Assembly: GCF_025717675.1 (NCBI RefSeq)
Contig: NZ_JAJIRT010000006.1
Coordinates: forward strand, 248,001-312,000
DNA: 64,000 nucleotides
Origin: Paucibacter sp. DJ2R-2
GTDB lineage: Bacteria > Pseudomonadota > Gammaproteobacteria > Burkholderiales > Burkholderiaceae_C
Reading direction: 5' to 3'
Shown one piece after another: positions 53,101 through 64,000 of the stretch (the stretch's first letter is position 1; every line of letters starts with the position of its first letter). The notes below the pieces were generated by a model. It saw only the letters and a program-made list of their open reading frames with translations, had not been told where the DNA came from and did no database searches. A program made the translations under genes and the position numbers.

Positions 53101-55878
53101 TCACAGTTTTGACTGAACAGCCTTGAACTCAGCCCTGCTCGCAAACGCCGGATCATCCGCGACCAACTTCTTCAGCTGCGTCTGCGCCTGGTCTTTCTGC
53201 CCTGCGGCAAGCAGGTGCCGGGCCAGATTCAACCGAAACTCTGAACTACCCGGCATCAATGCCACAACCTTCTGCTGGAGTTCCACAGCTTTTGAGTACT
53301 CACCAGCGGCGGCATAGACATCAGCGACGGTGTCCATGACGCCCGGACTATTGGGCTGCAATGCCAGGGCTTTTTCCGCATACTCTCTCGCCTTGCCATC
53401 CTTGCGCTTGAGCGCCAGCGTCGCGAGATTGTTCAAGGCCGCCACGTTTTCGGGTTGCAAGGTGAGCACCTGGGCATACCAGCGCTCTGCCTGCTCAGGG
53501 CGAGAGCGGGCCAGTTCCACATCCCCGAGATAGAACAGGAACAAGGCATCTGTGCCATACGCCTTGCTGCGCTCTTGAGCGAACTTGTCGGCCGCGTCCA
53601 ATTCTTTGCCGCTGAGCAAGGCCTTGTGGAGCTTCATCGCCACTTCACTGCGACGGAAGTCAACATTCAGGGCTTGCTTGTACCAACGCACCGCCGCTGG
53701 CCATGACTTTTGAAAGGCCGCTACATCCCCGGCCAGGGCGTAGCCGAAATAATTCTTGGGCTGCTCGCGCTGAATTTGCAAACAGAGTTTCTCAGCCTCG
53801 TCGCCACGCCCCGAACCCACCAAGACCGACGCCATGGCCGCCTGCGCCTCCTGGAATTGAGGCTGTATCTGCAAAGCCTTCTTCAGAACCGCAAGCGCTT
53901 GAGCAGGCTCACCCTTCCCCACATACAGTCGACCTAAGGCCATCAAGGGCGCGACTGAATTCGGCTGCAGAGCCGCCCACTTGCCATAACTGGCCTCCGC
54001 TTGATTGAAGTCGCGTCCGGCCATTTGAACAGTACCCAGAATTCGCAAAGCCTCCGGACGCCCCGGGAACTGCGTGACCGTGTCCTGAGCCAGAGTCAGC
54101 GCTTTCTTGACGTTGTTCTGCTCCAGGTAAATTCCAGACAAATGCTCGCGCGGAGAAATCTCTCCAGGAAGGGCTTTCACTGTTTCTTCGAGCAGGCCAG
54201 CCAATTCAGCTGGAGCAGCACCCCGCTGTGCCCGCAACCCGATGGCAGCCATACGCGCCTGCAGGTTCTTGGGGTTCTCCGTGGCCATGCGATCAAAACG
54301 GGCAATCGCCGCCTCAATCTTTCGCTCCTTCAGGTCGAGATCAGCCAAGCCACGCGCCGCAGGGAAGGACTGCGAATCGATCTTCAGCGCCGCCTCAAAT
54401 GCCAAGCGAGCCTTGTCCGCGCTGCCTTTTTGAACCTCGATTTGACCGCGCAGGTTTGCCGCGTCGGGACGCTGCGGCTCCTTCTTCTCCAGCACGGCAA
54501 CCGCCTCAAGTGCGCGCGCATAGTCTTTCTTGCCCATCAAGGAGCTGATCAGCGCTAAATCGGCGGTGACGGCCTTCTCTTTTTCCGAAATCGCACGCAA
54601 CTCCTGAATGCCCAATTCAACTTCGCCCTTTTTGAGCTTGTCGACCGCAAGGTAGGTGCGGGCGCGGGCATCCTTGGGATTCAATTGCATGACTTGTTTG
54701 AAGAGCGACTCAGCTCGGGCAAACTCACCCAACTTGAGGCTGGCTTCAGCACCAACGGCCACGATCTCCGGGTCGAGAGGCGGCCGCTCCAAAAAGGGCT
54801 TCACCAAGGTCCAGGCCTTTGTCGGATTGCCGATTCGAATCAGTACACGCGCCAAGAGTGCGCGCACGCCAGGCGAGGACTCACCCAAATCCGTGCTCAT
54901 GGCCTTACCGAGATAGGTTTCGGCCTGGGTCATTGCACCTTTTTGAAAGCTGATCGCACCGGCCAAGTAGAGGACCTTGCCGCTGTCCGCAGCTCGCTTG
55001 AGCAGAGGCTGAAGGCGATCTTCCGCCAGCTTCATATCGCCACGCTCAAAGGCAAGCAGCACCCCAAAGTAGGCCGTATTGAGGTTATTCGGGATCTTGG
55101 ACTGCATGGAGTCCCAGACCGTTTGTGCTGATTTGTAATCCTGTTGCTGGATAAGTGCTGCGATGGCGCGACTCTGGGCCACGTAGTTCATGGCGTCCAG
55201 GTCCACCGCCTTTCGGTAAGCGCTGACGGCCGCAGCAGCCTCCCCCTTGAATTCGAGGAACTCTCCCAGAAGCAGCGAAACATCACTGCGCTGGGGTTCT
55301 TCCTTGGCCAAGGCTTCCACTTGAGAAAAAGCTGTATCGAAGTGACCTTCGGCCGCCTTCAGCCGAGATTCCACCAAACGAGCGCGGACGTACTTTGGCA
55401 CGGCCACCAACGCTTGGTCCACAGCCTTTCGCGCCTCCGGCAAACGCCCTTGGGCGGAATACGCCACCGCCAGGGAGGTCTGCAAGTCGGCTTGAGCAAC
55501 CGGAGGCTTCAAAGTCACGGCCGCAAAGCGGCTCAACACGCGCTCCATATCCCCCTGAAGAATCAGCACCCTCGCCTCCAGCGGCTGAACCTCCTCGTCC
55601 GGGTAGCCCAATTGGCCCGCCTTGCTCAATTCGATCAATGCGCCGTCCTGGTCACCCATTTCCGACAAAGTCTTGGCCAGCAAGAACCGAGCTTCAGACA
55701 AATTGCCATTTTTCTGAATCGCCGTCTTCAACTGAATCAAAGCAGCCTTGCGATCATTCTTTTCAAGATAGGACTTGGCGGAGCCCACCAGTTTTTCGGG
55801 CGTTTCACTGGAGCATCCCGCCATCAACGCAGCCAACACCACGGAACCAATCACAGACTTTGCAAAGTTGTTTTTCAC
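53101..55878 (-). CDS. prsT: XrtA/PEP-CTERM TPR-repeat lipoprotein PrsT
   Basis: 925 residues from a GTG at 55878 (a TTG at 55884 is in frame, two codons earlier); AAGAGA lies upstream. Signal with lipobox (ALMAGC), then nearly the whole length is TPR repeats, with the typical W/G-x2-x-Y/A-x-G-x-A-x-A-x2 spacing throughout (KAALIQLKTAIQKNG, RPDAANLRGQIEVQKGSADKARLA). It belongs to the large TPR lipoprotein family found with exosortase A, known as PrsT. It is thought to act as the assembly platform for EPS and PEP-CTERM protein export. It is the left-hand neighbour of the mobile-looking region at 56 kb. Confidence 0.92.
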   Translation of the reverse strand: MKNNFAKSVIGSVVLAALMAGCSSETPEKLVGSAKSYLEKNDRKAALIQLKTAIQKNGNLSEARFLLAKTLSEMGDQDGALIELSKAGQLGYPDEEVQPLEARVLILQGDMERVLSRFAAVTLKPPVAQADLQTSLAVAYSAQGRLPEARKAVDQALVAVPKYVRARLVESRLKAAEGHFDTAFSQVEALAKEEPQRSDVSLLLGEFLEFKGEAAAAVSAYRKAVDLDAMNYVAQSRAIAALIQQQDYKSAQTVWDSMQSKIPNNLNTAYFGVLLAFERGDMKLAEDRLQPLLKRAADSGKVLYLAGAISFQKGAMTQAETYLGKAMSTDLGESSPGVRALLARVLIRIGNPTKAWTLVKPFLERPPLDPEIVAVGAEASLKLGEFARAESLFKQVMQLNPKDARARTYLAVDKLKKGEVELGIQELRAISEKEKAVTADLALISSLMGKKDYARALEAVAVLEKKEPQRPDAANLRGQIEVQKGSADKARLAFEAALKIDSQSFPAARGLADLDLKERKIEAAIARFDRMATENPKNLQARMAAIGLRAQRGAAPAELAGLLEETVKALPGEISPREHLSGIYLEQNNVKKALTLAQDTVTQFPGRPEALRILGTVQMAGRDFNQAEASYGKWAALQPNSVAPLMALGRLYVGKGEPAQALAVLKKALQIQPQFQEAQAAMASVLVGSGRGDEAEKLCLQIQREQPKNYFGYALAGDVAAFQKSWPAAVRWYKQALNVDFRRSEVAMKLHKALLSGKELDAADKFAQERSKAYGTDALFLFYLGDVELARSRPEQAERWYAQVLTLQPENVAALNNLATLALKRKDGKAREYAEKALALQPNSPGVMDTVADVYAAAGEYSKAVELQQKVVALMPGSSEFRLNLARHLLAAGQKDQAQTQLKKLVADDPAFASRAEFKAVQSKL

Positions 55879-56215
55879 AAGCAATCTCTTTTTCTATCCA
55901 GGAAACAGCACCAGCCACATTGGCGAAGGCGCAGCCGTCTCAGCTATACAGCCGAGCCCACGGGCCGCAAACGCATCAAAGCGCGACACGCTACCACAGG
56001 CATGAAGCGAAAAGGCTGAGGCAAACTCACGCCCCGCCATCATCTGATCGAGCGCTGCATTTGAACCCCAACAGGGCCCAAGCCCTGCCCCCTTGAACAG
56101 AGGGTGAAAAGTGCCATACCGGAGCAACATCCCTCCGAAACAAGCGGCGCCTCCCCGTCGAATCGATTCAGTCCAGCAAGTAGCCGAAAAGCACAAACGA
56201 CCATGCGCAAAAAGA

Positions 56216-56599: not shown

Positions 56600-57922
56600 T
56601 CAGCGCGCCAAGCTTTTTGCGACCTCCAGGCCTCTAGCGAGGATAGTGTCTCGTCCCGCGAGCAAATCACTAACCGTAGGACTTGATGGAAAGTGCGGTT
56701 GGAACCCGACGCCAACGAATTCTTCACCCGTCACGGCCTTGTCCCACTTGATGAGCGCATACAGCGTCCCTCCGGCCGGCAATGCGACACGAGCCATTTC
56801 ACCTGTCGAACCGGCCGTCACTTCGCCAACCCGTTTTGCGCCGAGAGCCGAGGCAACGCTCACAAAGTCCTCGGCAGCGGACACAGTATCGTGATCCGTC
56901 AAGACCACGATGGGAATAGAGATTCGCTCCGACTCTGGCCTTGGCTTAATTTCGCCTTGCGGCAGCTGCACGAGCCGAATGGCGTCTGCCTCCGAACCGA
57001 CGTTGCTGGTGTTGCCTCCTTCTTCAGCGAGTCTGATCGAAGTTTTTCGAGTCACACCCTCTTTTACAGGCGAGGTTAGAAAGTGAGATAGGATTTCCAG
57101 GCCAATATTAGAATTTCCACCGGAATTCTTTCGCACATCAAATATTATTGCGCTACTGCTGCGAATTGCCGCTATGTTATTGAGGAAAGACAAATAGACA
57201 GAGCGATCGCGAAAATCTCTTACAGAGAAATAAGATACTTTCCCAGAGTCAAGCATCTGAAAATCCAGACGCTTCGACTCTATGTCCTGAAGAAATATTA
57301 GCTTCGTACCATCCGGCCATGCGTCGCCGCGCTCAAAAACCTTGATGCGTCGCTCTCCGGCCGGGGTGAGGTAGTCAATTTTTACAAGGCTTCCGCTTTG
57401 CCCCTCAAAAATTCGAGAGACGGAAATATCTTGGCGGCGATGCGCGGTAGAAGCTACAACTCGCGGCTCTCGCTCTTTGGCAATCTTAAAGGGCTCATCA
57501 CCATCGACTGCTTTGACAAGGCTGCCAAGCGGAATGTCTCTGGCCAAGTCATTCCGCACCCAAGTCACGACTGGCACACTTTCGATGAGCTCGACACCAA
57601 CGCTAGGCTTTGAGCGCTTGAGCGCAGCTCCAGGAGGTGCTAGCACAAAAGTGTGCCCGTCGTTTAATGTGGCTACGAGACGGTCCAGTGCGGCGTAGTA
57701 CTCCCCACTAGACTCAATCCCTTTGACTTCTTGGGTCGCTAGGTCGACAGCTGATTTGAACTCATTGATCCGATCGCGGATAGGGAATTGTCTATTAATT
57801 TGCTGCCAAATTATCGACACGCCTTCCACGCGTTGATTGGCCGTTAACGGCATTGGCTGCGCAGCGTCAACTTGAAGTGATGCAAACGATGTCATAACCA
57901 AAGCTAGCAAGACGTGTTTCAT
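56600..57922 (-). CDS. S41-family peptidase (C-terminal processing/tricorn-type)
   Basis: 440 residues from the ATG at 57922 (MKHVLL); a TTG at 57937 also opens the frame. Sec signal with cleavage near VDAAQ. LNDGHTF (86-92) and the nucleophile region DTVSAAED (S348, E351) mark the S41 active site (Ser plus the His and Glu of the tetrad); a PDZ-like middle region (about 108-200) precedes it. Likely acts in the periplasm. It is the last gene of the putative RiPP operon, starting 21 bp after the radical SAM gene. A role in leader or core processing, or in self-protection, is inference. Codon use is AT-richer than the EPS genes. Confidence 0.82.
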   Translation of the reverse strand: MKHVLLALVMTSFASLQVDAAQPMPLTANQRVEGVSIIWQQINRQFPIRDRINEFKSAVDLATQEVKGIESSGEYYAALDRLVATLNDGHTFVLAPPGAALKRSKPSVGVELIESVPVVTWVRNDLARDIPLGSLVKAVDGDEPFKIAKEREPRVVASTAHRRQDISVSRIFEGQSGSLVKIDYLTPAGERRIKVFERGDAWPDGTKLIFLQDIESKRLDFQMLDSGKVSYFSVRDFRDRSVYLSFLNNIAAIRSSSAIIFDVRKNSGGNSNIGLEILSHFLTSPVKEGVTRKTSIRLAEEGGNTSNVGSEADAIRLVQLPQGEIKPRPESERISIPIVVLTDHDTVSAAEDFVSVASALGAKRVGEVTAGSTGEMARVALPAGGTLYALIKWDKAVTGEEFVGVGFQPHFPSSPTVSDLLAGRDTILARGLEVAKSLAR

Positions 57923-57943
57923 GCGGCTGAATTCCAAATTCGA

Positions 57944-59062
57944 TTACAGCGCTTGGATAGGAATGTACTTCCGATTCTCCGGTACGGAGAGCGTACGGAC
58001 TCTATACAGCGGGCATCCTAGTTCCGAGGGCTTACCCGAATAGAAACCCACCATCCACATCTTCACGAGTTCAGGATCCAATTTAATCTCACCGGATTCC
58101 AAGATCTTGCCGATGTCATTCCGGGCATCATCTAAGGCAGTTGTGCACTTCACAATTCGTCCATCAGACCGAATTCCAAACGAGTTCGCAGCTGCTGCAT
58201 AGCAGACATCTGCTTCTCCTTCGGCAGCGGGGCCTGCGACGGCAATAGGATTAGCGCGTGCGGGAATTGGCTCATGTTGTGCTGTTGCGGATGGCGCGAT
58301 CTTCTTAGCTGCATTGAAACGGGTCAAGATGCGTTGACGCACAGCATCAGCAATCTGCCGAGTGGTGGTACGCATCTTGTTCGTCTCGAACGCGCCGCCA
58401 TAATTTCCGATCGATATCGGATGCAACTTGAAGCGTTCATCGCCACCGAAATCATTAATCAGTTGGGGAAGAAGATCATTCTCAACGGCCTCGATATTCT
58501 CGTGGTGTAAATGCAGGCGCAGTGTGATAGTAAAGTCCAGTTCCGTTGCAGCTGCCGCCAGCAGATTACCGTACACAACGCTAAACGTCCCGGCGCCGTC
58601 GGCACGTAGCCGCGTCTGATTGTGATGTTCCTCCGGCCCGTCAAGAGTAATCTGGTAGCTGGTGACGCCCCAGCCTACTAGCTTGCGCAGCATCGTCTCG
58701 TCAAGCAAATAGGCGTTGGTCGTGATCCCGCTCGCATGGGACTTCAACTCCGGATATAGGGCAACCAATTGGATGCGATGAGTCTCGATTTCCTCGATAA
58801 CTTCAAGTCCCATCAATGGTTCGCCGCCGAACCAAGAGATATAGAGAGACTCTAGGCCGGCTTTGGCGCGTGCCGTCATCAACGCCTTGATTCCATTGCG
58901 GACTTCATGAGACATGCGTCCTAGCTCAAAGTCCTCATAGCAGTAAGTGCAGCGAAAATTACACTTCTCGGTCGCAAAGAGGCGCAACTCCAAGTGCCTA
59001 GGATTAATTCCGCTCAAGAAGGCCTTATACACGGCCTCGCTCATGTGTGCTGTGTTTTCCAT
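57944..59062 (-). CDS. radical SAM peptide maturase (reduced SPASM)
   Basis: 372 residues. The radical SAM cluster motif is CNFRCTYC (C34, C38, C41), with FATEK before it and a GGEP motif at 79-82. The C-terminal part has C287, then a GRIVKC element (C306) and a GCPLYR (C350), a shortened SPASM/twitch-like site for one auxiliary Fe-S cluster. The gene follows the Cys-rich peptide gene by 72 bp, on the same strand, with a hairpin between. Enzymes of this kind make C-S or C-C cross-links in precursor peptides. It is not close to any named maturase I can recall; the product class (sactipeptide, ranthipeptide or cyclophane) is undecided. Confidence 0.85.
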   Translation of the reverse strand: MENTAHMSEAVYKAFLSGINPRHLELRLFATEKCNFRCTYCYEDFELGRMSHEVRNGIKALMTARAKAGLESLYISWFGGEPLMGLEVIEEIETHRIQLVALYPELKSHASGITTNAYLLDETMLRKLVGWGVTSYQITLDGPEEHHNQTRLRADGAGTFSVVYGNLLAAAATELDFTITLRLHLHHENIEAVENDLLPQLINDFGGDERFKLHPISIGNYGGAFETNKMRTTTRQIADAVRQRILTRFNAAKKIAPSATAQHEPIPARANPIAVAGPAAEGEADVCYAAAANSFGIRSDGRIVKCTTALDDARNDIGKILESGEIKLDPELVKMWMVGFYSGKPSELGCPLYRVRTLSVPENRKYIPIQAL

Positions 59063-59083
59063 GCGCTCCCCAGGTTAGATATA

Positions 59084-59111
59084 GCGCCTTCGCCGTTTTT
59101 GGCGAAGGCGC
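59084..59111 (-). other. hairpin between precursor and maturase genes
   Basis: GCGCCTTCGCC and GGCGAAGGCGC form a perfect 11-bp stem with a 6-base loop (59084-59111). On the transcribed strand it follows the precursor stop (59135) and precedes the maturase start (59062). No T-run follows, so it may be a partial terminator or RNA-processing site that keeps precursor levels above maturase levels, as is usual in such operons. Confidence 0.7.
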
Positions 59112-59134
59112 AGAGCAAATTAGCTACGAGTCAG

Positions 59135-59332
59135 TCAGAGGGTGCTGCCGTCACCTGAGCTCATGCACTTGCTGCCACAGTGATTGTTGTTCGACCCCTG
59201 GCAGCCGGTACCGCACTCGTTGTTGTCTGCGCCACCCACTTCGGACAGCATTTCGGCCGGGATCTCGATGCCGACTTGGGCGCCGAATTCATTGAAGGCG
59301 ATTTGAGACATGTCTACAGAAATAATACTCAC
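59135..59332 (-). CDS. RiPP precursor peptide with double-glycine leader
   Basis: 65 residues from a GTG at 59332 that has a strong AGGAGA site 5-6 bases upstream; an ATG at 59311 (MSQIAF) is an alternative. The leader runs to G34 in LSEVGGA, the double-glycine site cut by C39 peptidases. The 31-residue core holds four cysteines at 40, 44, 52 and 56, i.e. CX3C, seven residues, CX3C, with Gly, Asn and Ser between. The gene begins 9 bp after the transporter's stop and is followed by the radical SAM gene. I know no characterised peptide with this core; product, modification and activity are inferred. Confidence 0.85.
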   Translation of the reverse strand: MSIISVDMSQIAFNEFGAQVGIEIPAEMLSEVGGADNNECGTGCQGSNNNHCGSKCMSSGDGSTL

Positions 59333-59341
59333 AGTCTTCTC

Positions 59342-61498
59342 CTAAGTTTCCGCAACGGCTGCGGCGCCATGTGGAGTTGCCTTCTCAGTTGAGTTGGTCA
59401 CCCCAGCATTCCTCCCTTGGTGCACTTCAGACTTGCCGTGACCGGGTTTAATTAATTCAATTACTCGGCCTGCAGAAGCAATTGTTTCTCGCCGATGGGC
59501 GATGATTACTCGGGTACTCCCCATGCGCCTAATTGATTCATTTACACGGGACTCGCTCTGCATATCCAAGTGACTTGTTGCCTCATCGAGCACCAATAGC
59601 GAAGGCTTGCGATAGAGGGCTCTAGCCAGCAAAATGCGCTGCCTTTGACCACCGGATAAGCTTGAACCAACGTCGCCTACAAGGGTGTGATACTGCATGG
59701 GCATTTTAACGATATCGTCCGCTATATCAGCGAACGCAGCGGATTCTTCGATGCGAGCGATATCTACTCCACTGTCAAAAGAGGAGATATTATCGATCAA
59801 CGAACCCGTTAGCAAACTATCGTCTTGAAGCACTGCTGCCATCGCCGCGTAGAGCTCACTGCGAGAACATCCTTCTATGTTTCGACCATCAATTAGAACT
59901 TCACCCGAGGTCGGGCGAAGCAGGCCAAGTATTAGCTTTGCAACTGTACTCTTGCCGCACCCTGAAGGACCAACTAGCGCAACTGATTCACCAGCGTCAA
60001 TCTTGAATGAAACATCTCTGAGAATCCACGGATCAGTACTCGAGTACCTGAAGCTCACATTATAGAACTCTACCGCTTGTGGGCCCTTGGAGTTCGAAAT
60101 TTCAAGCGACTGAGATTGATTTTCAGCCTCGGTTTCAACGATATCTCGCAATCGGTCAAAGTCGACCGCAAGAAGGCGAAGTTCGACCAGCTTTTCTAGT
60201 ACTGCGCGTACCCGCGTCATCAGGATTGCTCTGTAGGCGAGATATGCCAGCAGCATTCCCACACTTAGCGCCCCTTGAATTGCCAAGTGGGCACCAAGCC
60301 AAACCACGGCAACCTGCTCAATGCTTAGGATTAAGTTTGTGCCAGCTACCGAGACGATCGACAATCGCTGCACTCTTACGTCGCCGTTTGTGGCGTCAAC
60401 ATATGCGTTGGACCACATTTCAATTCGCCTGCGCTCCAAACTCAGCAGCTTTACAACGATAGAAGTTCGGACAGTCTCAAGGAAAGTGCTTATTTCTCGT
60501 GCAGCCGCGACATTCTGAACCTCAGAGTGGCGACGCATCTTCGAGAGGACTGAGATGCGGAGTAGGACGCAAAGGGTCATCCCGGATAAGGAAATTGCGG
60601 CAAGGGGTGCGCTGTAATAGAACATTACCCCGATGAGAATCACCGATATCGCTGCATCGATGCCAGTTTCCATCCCGATGGAGCTAACAACGCGCTGCAC
60701 ATTGTCGATCGCGCGAAATCGAGATACCACATCACCCACATGCCGCTTCTGGAAGTACTCCGCGGGAAGGTGAACAAGGTGAGTGAATAGGCGCGTGGCC
60801 CATTGGTGATGCAGCCTGAATGACAAGTCAGACATAGCACTCGAACGTGCGAACGAAAGTGCAAACTGCAGAACGGCCAAGGACAGAAAAACCAATCCGA
60901 GTACCGTTACTAGGTCCTGATCCCCATTTGGAATGGATGAGTCAATAATGGTTTGTAAATACCCCGGCGCCAGAAGTGTGGCGATTTCTAGCACGGCCGA
61001 GAAGGCGAGCACAGTGGCTAGACTGGCTGCGAATCCGTCAAATACCCCAAGCCACCTCAAGAGGGATAATTTTGGTTCAACTTGAAGAGTTGACCTTTGG
61101 TCCGTCAATCCAGTCAACTCAAGGACCACCCCAGTAAAGCGCTGGCTCAGTTCTGCCGCCGTAACGTTGCGGCGCCCCAACTTTGGGTCGTGAATGGTGA
61201 ATTTCTCACCCTGAACGCGGTCCAGCACCACAAAGTGGTTCAGGTCCCAATGCAGAATTGACGGCGTCCGAATTTCGCGGAGGTTCTGGGGTTCAGTTCG
61301 CAGAGCTCGGCATTGAAACCCCAATGCGCGGGCAATACTGGTAATACCGCCAAGATTCACGCCTCGAAGGCTGGGACTAAATTGCGACCTCAGTTGAGGT
61401 AGGGTGTAAGTGGCCCCCCAGAAGGCACTCACCATCGCGAGGCAAGCAAGTCCGCACTCTGTCGCTTCACCCTGCAAGATGACAGGCAGTTTTTTCAT
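59342..61498 (-). CDS. ABC transporter with N-terminal C39 peptidase (PCAT)
   Basis: 718 residues. The peptidase domain has the catalytic cysteine in ATECGLACL (C15), His in DLNHFVV (H88) and Asp in IHDPKLG (D104). About six membrane spans follow (about 150-430), then the ATPase: Walker A GPSGCGKS (510-517), signature LSGGQRQR (614-621), Walker B LLVLDE (634-639) and the H-loop His668. It cleaves double-glycine leaders and exports the core. The start overlaps the HlyD stop as ATGA. It therefore matches the precursor at 59.2 kb in both site and operon. Confidence 0.93.
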   Translation of the reverse strand: MKKLPVILQGEATECGLACLAMVSAFWGATYTLPQLRSQFSPSLRGVNLGGITSIARALGFQCRALRTEPQNLREIRTPSILHWDLNHFVVLDRVQGEKFTIHDPKLGRRNVTAAELSQRFTGVVLELTGLTDQRSTLQVEPKLSLLRWLGVFDGFAASLATVLAFSAVLEIATLLAPGYLQTIIDSSIPNGDQDLVTVLGLVFLSLAVLQFALSFARSSAMSDLSFRLHHQWATRLFTHLVHLPAEYFQKRHVGDVVSRFRAIDNVQRVVSSIGMETGIDAAISVILIGVMFYYSAPLAAISLSGMTLCVLLRISVLSKMRRHSEVQNVAAAREISTFLETVRTSIVVKLLSLERRRIEMWSNAYVDATNGDVRVQRLSIVSVAGTNLILSIEQVAVVWLGAHLAIQGALSVGMLLAYLAYRAILMTRVRAVLEKLVELRLLAVDFDRLRDIVETEAENQSQSLEISNSKGPQAVEFYNVSFRYSSTDPWILRDVSFKIDAGESVALVGPSGCGKSTVAKLILGLLRPTSGEVLIDGRNIEGCSRSELYAAMAAVLQDDSLLTGSLIDNISSFDSGVDIARIEESAAFADIADDIVKMPMQYHTLVGDVGSSLSGGQRQRILLARALYRKPSLLVLDEATSHLDMQSESRVNESIRRMGSTRVIIAHRRETIASAGRVIELIKPGHGKSEVHQGRNAGVTNSTEKATPHGAAAVAET

Positions 61499-62856
61499 GG
61501 ATGTGCCTGCGAATGGGTCGGGGGCTGATAGATCGAGGTCTGAGGCGGTTCGCTCGGCTTGAACTGCGTTGTGTCTCGTTGACCTTTGAGCAGCCGAGCA
61601 GCCGGATCAACAAACCACCGAAGTACGCTTTGGGTTTCGGTCGGGATCAGTACGTCGGCCTCCATGCCAGCTCGCAGCTCACTGAGGCGGACCTTTAAAG
61701 TACTTGCCGCGACATTGATTCGCGCCTTGATCAAGAACTGCCGGTGCGCCCGCTTCACTGAGACTTGGTCTGCGGGTTGGATTTCGTCGTCATTCGTGGA
61801 AGCCTGTGACCAAGAGACCACCTGCGCTGACAAGTAGCCGTAGCGCTGACTGGGGAACGCGCTCAGTGAAGCTCTCACGGTGGTGCCATTCTGAAAATAG
61901 GGAGCAGCCGAGGAATCAACCCAAAAGTTGATTTCAAGTCCGTCAGAAGCCTCGGCCAGAAGCATTGCAGGCCTGGGGGTCGCGTAGTCACCTTCATGGA
62001 CGAAGACTGCGTAAACGATGGACCTCCGGTGCGCAACAACGGTCAGTCCTAGGTCTGCTTTAGCCTCGAGTAGGTCCTTGGTGACTTCCTCTATTTGGCG
62101 GTCAATTTCCGAAGTCCGCGCTCGAATCGTTCTGGAATTCGAGCGCAGGCTGAATTCCGCTTCACGCTGAGTTCGACGCAGCCGGACCCTGTCGCGCTCC
62201 AGTTCCACGGTCGCCCTTTCGGCGTCGAAGCGGTCAGTAATCTTTTGCTTAAGAGCTTCACTAGATATGAAGCCCTGATTGGCGAGCTCCTGGTGGCTCT
62301 TGTATTGTTCACCTGCGAATCTCGTCTTCGGGTCCTGAAGGCGCGCCAATTCGGCAACTTTGACCAGTTCCTCGTCGGCCGTTTGCTTCGATGTCCGAAG
62401 CTGTTCACCGATGTCCTGAAGCTCATCCGTCAGGACGGAGCGTTCGCTTCGAAGCAACGCAACGCGACGCTCTAGAGCAATGGCCTTCGATTCGTCGACA
62501 CGAGTTCCGCGACCGTCGAATAGCGTTCGGCTTTTGGTCACGACAAATAGGCATTCGCCGGCTTCGACTATCTGTCCAACTCCCTTGCAAACTCGAGCGA
62601 TGCGCGTGTCGAGTGGCGCATAGATTCGGTTTTGGCCATTAATGGGCAGAACAACGCCGGGCGCGCGAATCGTTCGGGTGTAGCTCGTGAATGCCGCGAG
62701 GCCTACCGCAGCGACAACCACCAGACAGACTACGAACCCGGAAAATCGCAACCAGCGCCACCCAGGAAGCAACGGACTTCCGATCCAGTCACCTTGCCGA
62801 GCGGCGGCAACTTCTGGACGAAATAACGGAACGCTCCCATTGAGCGGAGACGACAA
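61495..62856 (-). CDS. HlyD-family membrane fusion (periplasmic adaptor) protein
   Basis: 453 residues. The start is the TTG at 62856 with an AGGGGGG stretch about 7 bases upstream; no better start exists in frame. One membrane span (about 37-57, SGFVVCLVVVAAVGLAAF), then a lipoyl-like half-motif (GVVLPINGQNRIYAPLDTRI), a long coiled-coil hairpin (about 125-255) and the closing beta-barrel (about 260-430). It links the C39 transporter to an outer-membrane tunnel of TolC type, which must be encoded elsewhere. First gene of the operon. Confidence 0.92.
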   Translation of the reverse strand: MSSPLNGSVPLFRPEVAAARQGDWIGSPLLPGWRWLRFSGFVVCLVVVAAVGLAAFTSYTRTIRAPGVVLPINGQNRIYAPLDTRIARVCKGVGQIVEAGECLFVVTKSRTLFDGRGTRVDESKAIALERRVALLRSERSVLTDELQDIGEQLRTSKQTADEELVKVAELARLQDPKTRFAGEQYKSHQELANQGFISSEALKQKITDRFDAERATVELERDRVRLRRTQREAEFSLRSNSRTIRARTSEIDRQIEEVTKDLLEAKADLGLTVVAHRRSIVYAVFVHEGDYATPRPAMLLAEASDGLEINFWVDSSAAPYFQNGTTVRASLSAFPSQRYGYLSAQVVSWSQASTNDDEIQPADQVSVKRAHRQFLIKARINVAASTLKVRLSELRAGMEADVLIPTETQSVLRWFVDPAARLLKGQRDTTQFKPSEPPQTSIYQPPTHSQAHP

Positions 62857-63176
62857 GATCTGACCCCCCTGGCGCTATTTTTTTGCGCATCTTATTGCGT
62901 GACGATGCTCACGCTTGTATGGAGCATTATGGGAAGAATGCGCTGTCATCGCCCATCGGGTTAAACCCGGCAGCTCTTTTCAATCCGGCTGGTTTCGATG
63001 TTAGCCCAACTCGCCGCGAGAGGGAGGTGGGAGAGACGTTGCGGCAGAGCTATCTGCTGTTCGAACGACTCGTGCAGCGCCCCTACTGTGGAAGGGTCAG
63101 CGCAAATCTGCTCTTATGGCAAAGCAAGAATAGAAAGGTGGCAGCCTGTGATCAGGCAGCCCCCCCCCACCCCATC
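62857..63176. other. operon upstream region next to IS91-like remnant
   Basis: The region upstream of the HlyD gene must hold the promoter for the peptide operon. I see a weak CATAAT-like -10 near 62926-62931 (minus strand) and a palindrome CGGGTT-A-AACCCG at 62958-62970, but no convincing -35. The plus-strand frame here (from 62883) does not look like a real gene before 63177. No other feature is seen. Confidence 0.4.
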
Positions 63177-63935
63177 CCGCTCAACGCGACGATCACCAGG
63201 CTCAAGTTCTTCTTCGACATCACGCTGCTTCGCCCCGAGCTGATGCTCAAGATGCAGCACGTGCAGGTACGACACACGCTGCCCGTTGTACTCAGCCGCG
63301 AGGAGGTCTCCCTGCTGATCGCTGCGGCCTGGAACCTCAACCACCAGACGGCGCGGTCGCTGGCCTACGGCACCGGGCTGCGAGCCAGCGAAATGATCTC
63401 ACTGAAGGTCGACCACATCGACAACCAGCGCATGACGCTGAGCGTGGAGCAAGGCAAGGGCCGCAAGGATCGCTACGCAATGCTGCCGCCGATGCTGCTG
63501 GAGCGAATGCGCGCGTGGTAGTGCGTGGCCCACGCCCTGGACAAGATCCTGCGTGGCGACTGGCTGTTCCCGGGCTTGTTTCCGACGGATCCGCTGAGCA
63601 CTCGTCAGCTCAATCGCGCCATCCACGCCGCTGCCGCTGCGGCCAAAATCGACAAGCGCTTGTCCATACACACGCTGCGCCACTCATTTGCGACTCACCT
63701 GTCGGAGAAGCGGGTAGCCGTCCGCGTCATCCAGGTCTTGCTCGGTCTCGCCAGGCTGGAGACGACCAGCATCTATGCCCACGTCGCCACCGACTTGCTG
63801 CGCGAAGTGATCAACCCGCTGGAGAACCTGCCGCCGTCGCGAGGCCTACGTCGTAGGGTGGCCCGCACTTGGAGGTCGCCGAAATCTTCCGCACCCACGG
63901 TCCTGTCTGGCGAGCCGCCCGGCGTGGCCACCTGA
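63177..63935 (+). pseudogene. IS91-type tyrosine integrase pseudogene (truncated, amber stop)
   Basis: The open frame from 63177 translates into a tyrosine-recombinase catalytic domain: LPVVLSREEV, GTGLRASEMISLKVDHID, GKGRKDRYAMLPPMLLERMRAW, then TAG at 63519-63521, then the same frame goes on with KILRGDWLFPGLFP, LSIHTLRHSFATHL and a C-terminal LETTSIYAHVATDLLREV. The second part holds the H-x2-R and the active Tyr (IYAHVA). The core-binding N-terminal domain is missing. A single base change (TGG to TAG) explains the stop. This is the integrase-like partner of IS91-family elements, not a phage integrase of the neighbouring island. Confidence 0.75.
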
Positions 63936-64000
63936 GCCTGGGTCAGCTCAAGGTCATGTCAGCCATCGAGCAGTGCCGCAGCGCGGCACTGGGCGGACAC
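63869..64000 (+). CDS. IS91-family transposase, N-terminal part (cut by window edge)
   Basis: From the TTG at 63869 the frame reads LEVAEIFRTHGPVW and then a GHLSLGQLKVMSAIEQC segment, the N-terminus of an IS91-family (HUH) transposase. An in-frame stop (63854-63856) just upstream leaves no ATG or GTG; the family's usual M/V-A-R-P start would need one extra base, so the gene may carry a 1-base deletion near its start. The rest is outside the window. Confidence 0.7.
   Translation, partial: MEVAEIFRTHGPVWRAARRGHLSLGQLKVMSAIEQCRSAALGGH

Follow-up and report, generated by a model that had tools for sequence, protein, structure and literature searches.

The described system closest to the one reported here is that of the precursor NxxcA and its radical S-adenosylmethionine (SAM) enzyme NxxcB, which, according to passages of two reports (PMC8326336, PMC13361665), forms a bond between Cys23 and the Asn20 beta carbon within a motif N-x-x-C, and which is termed SPASM-containing in a review (PMC9012708). 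Among other thioether enzymes, the relevant passages of PMC11002830 describe PapB as attaching Cys sulphur to a beta carbon and both CteB and QhpD-like enzymes as forming non-alpha thioethers, and a passage of PMC8326336 gives SkfB an auxiliary cluster with three Cys ligands and an open site. What the second auxiliary cluster of SPASM enzymes does is, according to the same review, unclear (PMC9012708). Here we analyse a five-gene operon at positions 56600 to 62856 of a 64,000-nucleotide stretch of Paucibacter sp. DJ2R-2 (contig NZ_JAJIRT010000006.1, positions 248,001 to 312,000; the whole stretch is referred to as the window), in which a small Cys-rich peptide is paired with a radical SAM enzyme. 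We consider it probable, though far from certain, that this is an operon for a ribosomally synthesised and post-translationally modified peptide (RiPP) with Asn-Cys beta-thioethers made by a minimal enzyme of the radical SAM class.

The operon, its precursor and its maturase

Five minus-strand open reading frames (ORFs) run from 62856 to 56600 in the order HlyD adaptor, C39 peptidase/ATP-binding cassette (ABC) exporter, precursor, radical SAM enzyme and S41 protein; the first two share 4 bp, and the precursor lies 9 bp behind the exporter and 72 bp ahead of the maturase. The precursor (59135..59332, minus strand; 65 aa) has a GTG start with AGGAG 6 nt upstream, and Pfam and NCBIfam scans gave no family match for it. 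Its leader (residues 1-34; 59231..59332, minus strand) ends in MLSEVGG, i.e. in a double glycine, and includes IAFNEFG, which fits the pattern I-x-[FLI]-[DN]-x-x-G of the family described below. The 31-residue core (59138..59230, minus strand), ADNNECGTGCQGSNNNHCGSKCMSSGDGSTL, has the Cys spacing CX3C-X7-CX3C and contains two N-x-x-C-x3-C units, N37..C40..C44 and N49..C52..C56 in precursor numbering; Asn thus stands at -3 for two of the four Cys, and the NxxC motif is present. No second precursor was found in the same genome, where the sole other match (E 0.4) contains two stops.

The maturase (57944..59062, minus strand; 372 aa; PF04055, E 2.7e-15) has six Cys in total, of which C34, C38 and C41 form the radical SAM motif CNFRCTYC and C287, C306 and C350, the only others, make up one auxiliary cluster site. 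By this Cys pattern the enzyme would be of the twitch type, with a single auxiliary site after the radical SAM core; Pfam returned no SPASM domain match in it at E values up to 1. Because merely 33 residues precede C34, a RiPP recognition element (RRE) cannot be fused to the protein, and no PqqD-type RRE (PF05402) was found in the genome at E <= 0.001, a search that divergent RREs could escape. Neither the window maturase, among its best 25 of 62 families, nor nine of its relatives reached an NCBIfam cut-off, those of TIGR04463, Clo7bot, PapB, CefB and geopeptide maturases included.

The exporter (59342..61498, minus strand; 718 aa) matches PF03412 (E 2.9e-33), PF00664 (E 7.8e-38) and PF00005 (E 5.5e-32), and its C39 blocks QGEATECGLACL, ILHWDLNHFVVL and HDP have their key positions in common with five aligned relatives. 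As these blocks, which we presume to have their usual role, are present, the exporter should cut a double-glycine leader. The adaptor (61495..62856, minus strand; 453 aa; TTG start) is of HlyD type, with 69.4 bits to TIGR01843 (cut-off 208.65) and 24.9 bits to PF13437 (E 3.5e-5; cut-off 22.2). A small precursor whose leader ends in a double glycine, a modifying enzyme next to it and a C39-ABC exporter together form the arrangement of a RiPP operon, and the case for a RiPP system is strong.

The first-pass annotation of this DNA had already proposed a RiPP-type operon of five same-strand genes with gaps of 9-72 bp or overlap, a 31-residue CX3C-X7-CX3C core and a reduced auxiliary cluster site. 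Coordinates and domains confirm the layout, the translated precursor confirms the core, and the three Cys beyond the radical SAM motif bear out the reduced site; the operon type is upheld by the precursor, maturase and C39 exporter content and by the pairing seen in relatives.

Relatives of the maturase and their precursors

A tblastn search of plasmids returned 72 records, 20 of them spanning at least 80% of the maturase query, and the best six relatives (35.5-39.2% identity) are from Streptomyces, Deinococcus, Sinorhizobium and Acetobacter. A scan of genomes yielded at least 546 relatives, of which 80 loci (given below by L numbers) were examined: a motif rule assigned the same three-Cys site to 54, a full SPASM to 25 and neither to L105, which failed the rule and is counted with the 54 in a non-full set of 55. 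In alignment A2, which excludes L096, L097, L100, L102, L106 and L030 as near-copies of retained rows, the columns of C287, C306 and C350 hold Cys in all 61 non-full rows, whereas the further SPASM Cys columns hold Cys in 21 of 22 full rows versus 0, 0, 0 and 1 of the non-full rows. MAFFT aligns C350, which we take to be a ligand of auxiliary cluster I, with the second Cys in the CxxC of full-SPASM rows; this placement is probably wrong, since 'CPLYR' fits a later 'CPLYR' of the full-SPASM kin.

In the tree built without the C-terminal part, which is a quick, unrooted search that left 34 of 80 inner branches open, the full-SPASM group (22 rows, support 94) amounts to one change. The window maturase groups with those of a Burkholderiales metagenome-assembled genome (MAG; L031) and Chromobacterium vaccinii (L032) with support 97, and this trio sits, weakly, in the half of the tree that holds the full-SPASM group; a single clade of reduced-site rows receives no support from the unrooted tree. 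The labels of the 55 non-full loci cover 13 named phyla, one of them archaeal, with Pseudomonadota (30) and Cyanobacteriota (7) among them, and many are MAGs, of which the archaeal ones may be misbinned. Three loci labelled as archaeal MAGs (L070, L080, L085), on contigs that are either real or misbinned, hold a maturase and Cys-bearing precursor ORFs. The operon is apparently one member of a widespread, unnamed family; no earlier description of the enzyme group was found in the open-licence literature, where one may nevertheless exist, and no search was made for a biochemical study of this protein.

Precursor and maturase are found together in these relatives as well, and since the pairing recurs it is not chance. 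Plasmid loci of Streptomyces, Acetobacter, Bradyrhizobium and Sinorhizobium have a small ORF directly upstream of the maturase, with the leader pattern or a close form of it and Cys near its end; two Deinococcus plasmid loci, full-SPASM kin, show no such leader-pattern ORF upstream. A rule requiring leader plus Cys is passed on the same strand by 41 of 381 ORFs within 800 bp of a maturase versus 56 of 2746 farther away, and on the opposite strand by 10 of 481 near and 63 of 3315 far ORFs. At least one passing ORF occurs in 35 of 60 loci, a figure to be read with care as several of the 41 look spurious and at least L025 and L046 are counted only through such ORFs. By eye, a Cys-rich precursor ORF was found beside the maturase in 39 of the 55 non-full genome loci. 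The first-pass annotation had made its claim depend on maturase homologues having a small Cys-rich gene nearby, and the claim survived, such ORFs standing beside many relatives. It had further expected precursor homologues with the same CX3C pattern next to maturase homologues; Cys-rich ORFs do recur there, but CX3C is not their common pattern, and Cys-Cys gaps of 0-15 (with peaks at 3, 5 and 7) rule it out as the family signature.

As read from the precursor sequences, the signature of the family is an Asn three residues ahead of Cys. It was assessed on a hand list of 45 precursors (39 genome loci, five plasmid loci and the window), from which L065 was dropped as like L061 and in which one candidate each was kept for L028, L070 and L079. 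Asn occupies -3 in 50 of 129 cases in these 45 cores, compared with a mean of 16.1 on shuffling within cores, and none of 500 shuffles reached the observed count. For a rule-picked set (42 ORFs under a looser rule, spurious ones included) the count is 41 of 120 against a mean of 10.5 (0/2000 shuffles), and other near same-strand ORFs show Asn at -3 in 20 of 430 cases. At least one N-x-x-C is present in 32 of the 45 precursors versus 13.4 after shuffling (0/2000). Beside full-SPASM kin, some Paenibacillus and Geobacillus ORFs end, by eye, in N-x-N-C or similar.

Of the 55 non-full loci 26 contain a C39 domain, and of the 25 full-SPASM loci none; the absence is weak, since a locus covers no more than 8 kb on either side and the scan, whose four query domains were taken from the window and three non-full loci, favours the non-full ones. 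Other arrangements occur among the relatives. The precursors L026:7646-7882, L047:7615-7866 and L092:9175-9429 open with what appears by eye to be a Sec-like signal peptide, and in L026 adaptor, ABC and TolC genes lie upstream of the precursor, perhaps as another export route for the same peptide family. In the precursor L132:10833-11550 a leader-like block (NVIIKNPDF) follows the Cys core again, and in L075 a block of this kind occurs twice before the core, which suggests recognition from either side. The maturase relatives of the Deinococcus plasmid loci L024 (full SPASM) and L029 lie behind an oxidoreductase gene, annotated as alkane 1-monooxygenase in the former and as a luciferase-like monooxygenase (LLM) of MsnO8 type in the latter; in L029 there are, in addition, lantibiotic dehydratase genes and a small ORF whose leader is similar, and a hybrid RiPP system is possible there.

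Candidate chemistry

In the mechanism that we favour, the 65-residue precursor would be recognised via its leader by a small radical SAM enzyme whose single auxiliary Fe-S cluster has three Cys ligands and one open site. The enzyme would remove hydrogen from the Asn at -3 of a Cys and bond this Asn, most likely through its beta carbon, to the sulphur of the Cys. Two four-residue thioether rings, N37-C40 and N49-C52, would be formed, leaving C44 and C56 for a disulphide or further cross-links. Together with the HlyD adaptor and, presumably, a TolC encoded at another site, the C39-ABC exporter would cleave after the double glycine and export the 31-residue core. The S41 protein might then work on the peptide in the periplasm, by trimming, binding or self-protection, and a secreted inter-bacterial peptide would be the most likely use. 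More tentative is an extension of this mechanism to the family, namely that a minimal radical SAM enzyme with neither RRE nor second auxiliary cluster cross-links N-x-x-C peptides of many phyla, possibly archaeal ones included, at their Asn, and that its free cluster site grips the Cys being joined.

Several observations weigh against Asn-Cys thioether formation as proposed. Two of the four window Cys have no Asn at -3. N-x-x-C is missing from 13 of the 45 precursors, and therefore another acceptor or another reaction is to be expected in some members. The hand list, though chosen by leader and Cys, was read by eye, and 16 of the 55 non-full loci have no entry in it (L065 is a near-copy, some lie at contig ends, and in the rest no precursor was seen). 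Rule-passing ORFs far from the maturase on the same strand are also enriched in Asn at -3 (23/165), and near opposite-strand ones have 4/26; the excess in these two sets could be due to further precursor copies. Beside full-SPASM kin the rule gives no credible precursor (2 ORFs, 0/8 Cys), and the SPASM feature reported for NxxcB, as far as the descriptions of that enzyme go, is missing from the window maturase.

The 13 precursors that lack N-x-x-C would suit another radical chemistry on Asn or a neighbouring residue (epimerisation, C-C or C-N bond formation, or oxidation), with the Cys serving as disulphides or in metal binding, and the radical SAM superfamily is versatile. JmjC_2 (PF08007) proteins occur in three maturase loci (L045:9084-11222, L079:9145-10308 and L083:562-2544), with a second one in L045 and a 2-oxoglutarate-Fe(II) oxygenase in L083, which makes tailoring in more than a single step likely among relatives and points to an additional oxidation in some of them. 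Such chemistry is nevertheless unlikely for the window enzyme in our view, because Asn keeps a fixed distance from Cys, and this suggests a joint reaction of the two.

A sactipeptide, in which Cys sulphur is joined to alpha carbons as by AlbA and SkfB, is a further doubtful alternative. In its favour, SkfB (PMC8326336) shares the type of three-Cys auxiliary site with an open position. The RumMC sactisynthase model also matches 68 of the 83 members of A2. Against this, the fixed Asn at -3 is the NxxcA pattern, and the closest solved structure to the maturase is 5wgg ('Radical SAM domain protein', 108 bits versus 38 for SkfB), which we take to be CteB, a non-alpha thioether enzyme. The PapB and QhpD models match all 83 members at E <= 1e-10 (scores being given for the first member only), but because six other maturase models do so too, these matches do not decide the bond type. 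MovX, considered as a candidate enzyme, was discarded, as the name is attached to MNIO enzymes, another class.

The S41 protein, the genomic setting and known systems

The S41 protein (56600..57937, minus strand; start at TTG 57937 or ATG 57919) has a Peptidase_S41 domain (PF03572, E 3.9e-15), a Sec-like signal peptide by eye, and the residues DGHT and SAAE, of which we take the Ser before AAE and the His of DGH to be catalytic. L032 has DSH and SAC. DGH reads DGM in L045, L083 and L087, and the last two also have another residue in place of the putative nucleophile, the Ser before AAE; given these replacements, the protein may bind rather than cut in some members, and these motifs do not show a role as active peptidase.

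That its gene is a chance neighbour outside the system would accord with most relatives having none: an S41 profile run against the ORFs of 88 loci gave five strong matches and one weak one (L035), and as the profile was built partly from L032, L045, L083 and L087, L059 is the sole independent strong match. This explanation is nonetheless improbable. S41 relatives accompany maturase and/or exporter genes in L045, L083 and L087 (tblastn, E 1e-26 to 3e-30), the S41 gene lies directly behind the maturase in L032, as in the window (Pfam, E 3.8e-7), and in L059 it precedes the HlyD gene and the maturase (profile match). Among 369 genomes of the class, moreover, the maturase is found at E <= 1e-40 in three (the Paucibacter genome itself, G435 and G717) and an S41 match at E <= 1e-15 in two (itself and G435), both of them maturase carriers, the linkage in G435 not being visible because both genes lie at contig ends. 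S41 relatives occur in 10 of 300 genomes of the order, this one included; the nine others are distant, and their stretches of about 4 kb each gave no exporter, adaptor or maturase match. The additional S41 peptidase of the first-pass annotation thus holds as a gene that recurs with the system, and less well as a peptidase, the nucleophile Ser being lost in two relatives.

GC content is 49.5-56.1% across kb 57-62 of the window, against 55.8-63.9% in kb 40-56 and 63.8% in kb 63, i.e. the operon is on the whole below its surroundings with both ends within the flank range, and the AT-richer DNA noted earlier is confirmed to that extent. The decayed mobile element said to adjoin it is likewise present, as a tyrosine-recombinase/integrase frame with an internal stop, followed by an IS91-like transposase piece (both named by eye; together 62883-64000 and L121:8883-10372). 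Maturase matches occur in 71 of 119 genomes (this one included, with 17 others of the same genus in the set), the best outside this genome having E 4.1e-10 and 28% identity over residues 30-224; the 17 same-genus genomes lack a strong match (best E 2.2e-7). Because matches across the 119 genomes, same genus included, are weak, gain of the operon by transfer is suggested. That the operon is a decayed, productless remnant beside the mobile element, as the interrupted integrase frame and the lack of a strong match in the same genus might imply, is very improbable, since none of the five frames is interrupted, the precursor, preceded by a ribosome-binding site, has preserved its leader, double glycine and repeat, and the C39 and S41 blocks are retained.

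The spacer between precursor and maturase contains a stem-loop (59084..59111, minus strand; 11-bp stem, 6-nt loop, without a U run), and the fold of 59050-59140 has a z of -3.03, equalled by 1 of 200 shuffles; the hairpin may stabilise or attenuate the message and thereby leave the precursor in excess over the enzyme. Beside the operon, on the same strand, 53101-55884 encodes a 927-residue tetratricopeptide-repeat protein, which we take to resemble PrsT of PEP-CTERM systems. A second radical SAM enzyme, more distantly related, is encoded in the genome (G000:C1:1312591-1313448; L125, L133), with E 6e-45 to profile A2 and 31% identity over residues 25-191, about 2 kb from ABC genes of the MacB kind (by eye); the small-ORF rule gives no precursor beside it. 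A third, weaker match lies at C47:53666.

Should the proposed mechanism hold across the family, its enzymes would count with the simplest peptide maturases in nature that form thioethers, and second cluster and RRE would be shown to be dispensable; a natural enzyme group without second cluster or fused RRE would allow a direct test of what the second cluster does. By the N-x-x-C rule, dozens of unannotated small ORFs from several phyla become substrates whose predicted rings can be tested, and small maturases would be attractive for the production of cyclic peptides. The system had been proposed as undescribed, and this stands in that no NCBIfam cut-off was reached and the precursor has no family; it is qualified by the N-x-x-C precedent in NxxcA/NxxcB, which may mean that the chemistry is already known. 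Neither the models nor the open-licence literature searched named the enzyme group, its spread, or the absence of RRE and second cluster from it, and the parts are of known kinds.

Compared with described maturases, the window enzyme is like SkfB, a twitch-domain sactisynthase, in its single auxiliary cluster site with three Cys and an open position; SkfB differs in having an RRE and making an alpha-carbon thioether, and the similarity is weak (38 bits). With PapB of the freyrasin system, described as making a beta-carbon thioether, it shares a core that matches NF047865 at 84.5 bits, below the PapB cut-off of 340 bits, and the PapB acceptor is Asp where here it would be Asn. TIGR04463 is the best model for the nine relatives and second best for the window, with 103 bits for the window (residues 19-201 only) and at most 219.6 among the nine against a cut-off of 525. 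NxxcA/NxxcB, the Streptococcus orisratti ranthipeptide, shares the Asn at -3 of a core Cys, a radical SAM maturase and, by inference, a four-residue ring. The available descriptions, on which the comparison rests, give it a SPASM-type enzyme and a streptococcal quorum-sensing setting, in contrast to the three auxiliary Cys, double-glycine leader and C39/HlyD export seen here. As the motif is shared, the SPASM feature is not, and NxxcB is known to us by description only, we do not claim NxxC family membership; by analogy, the chemistry may, and probably does, have a precedent in NxxcA/NxxcB, though the enzyme group itself is unnamed.

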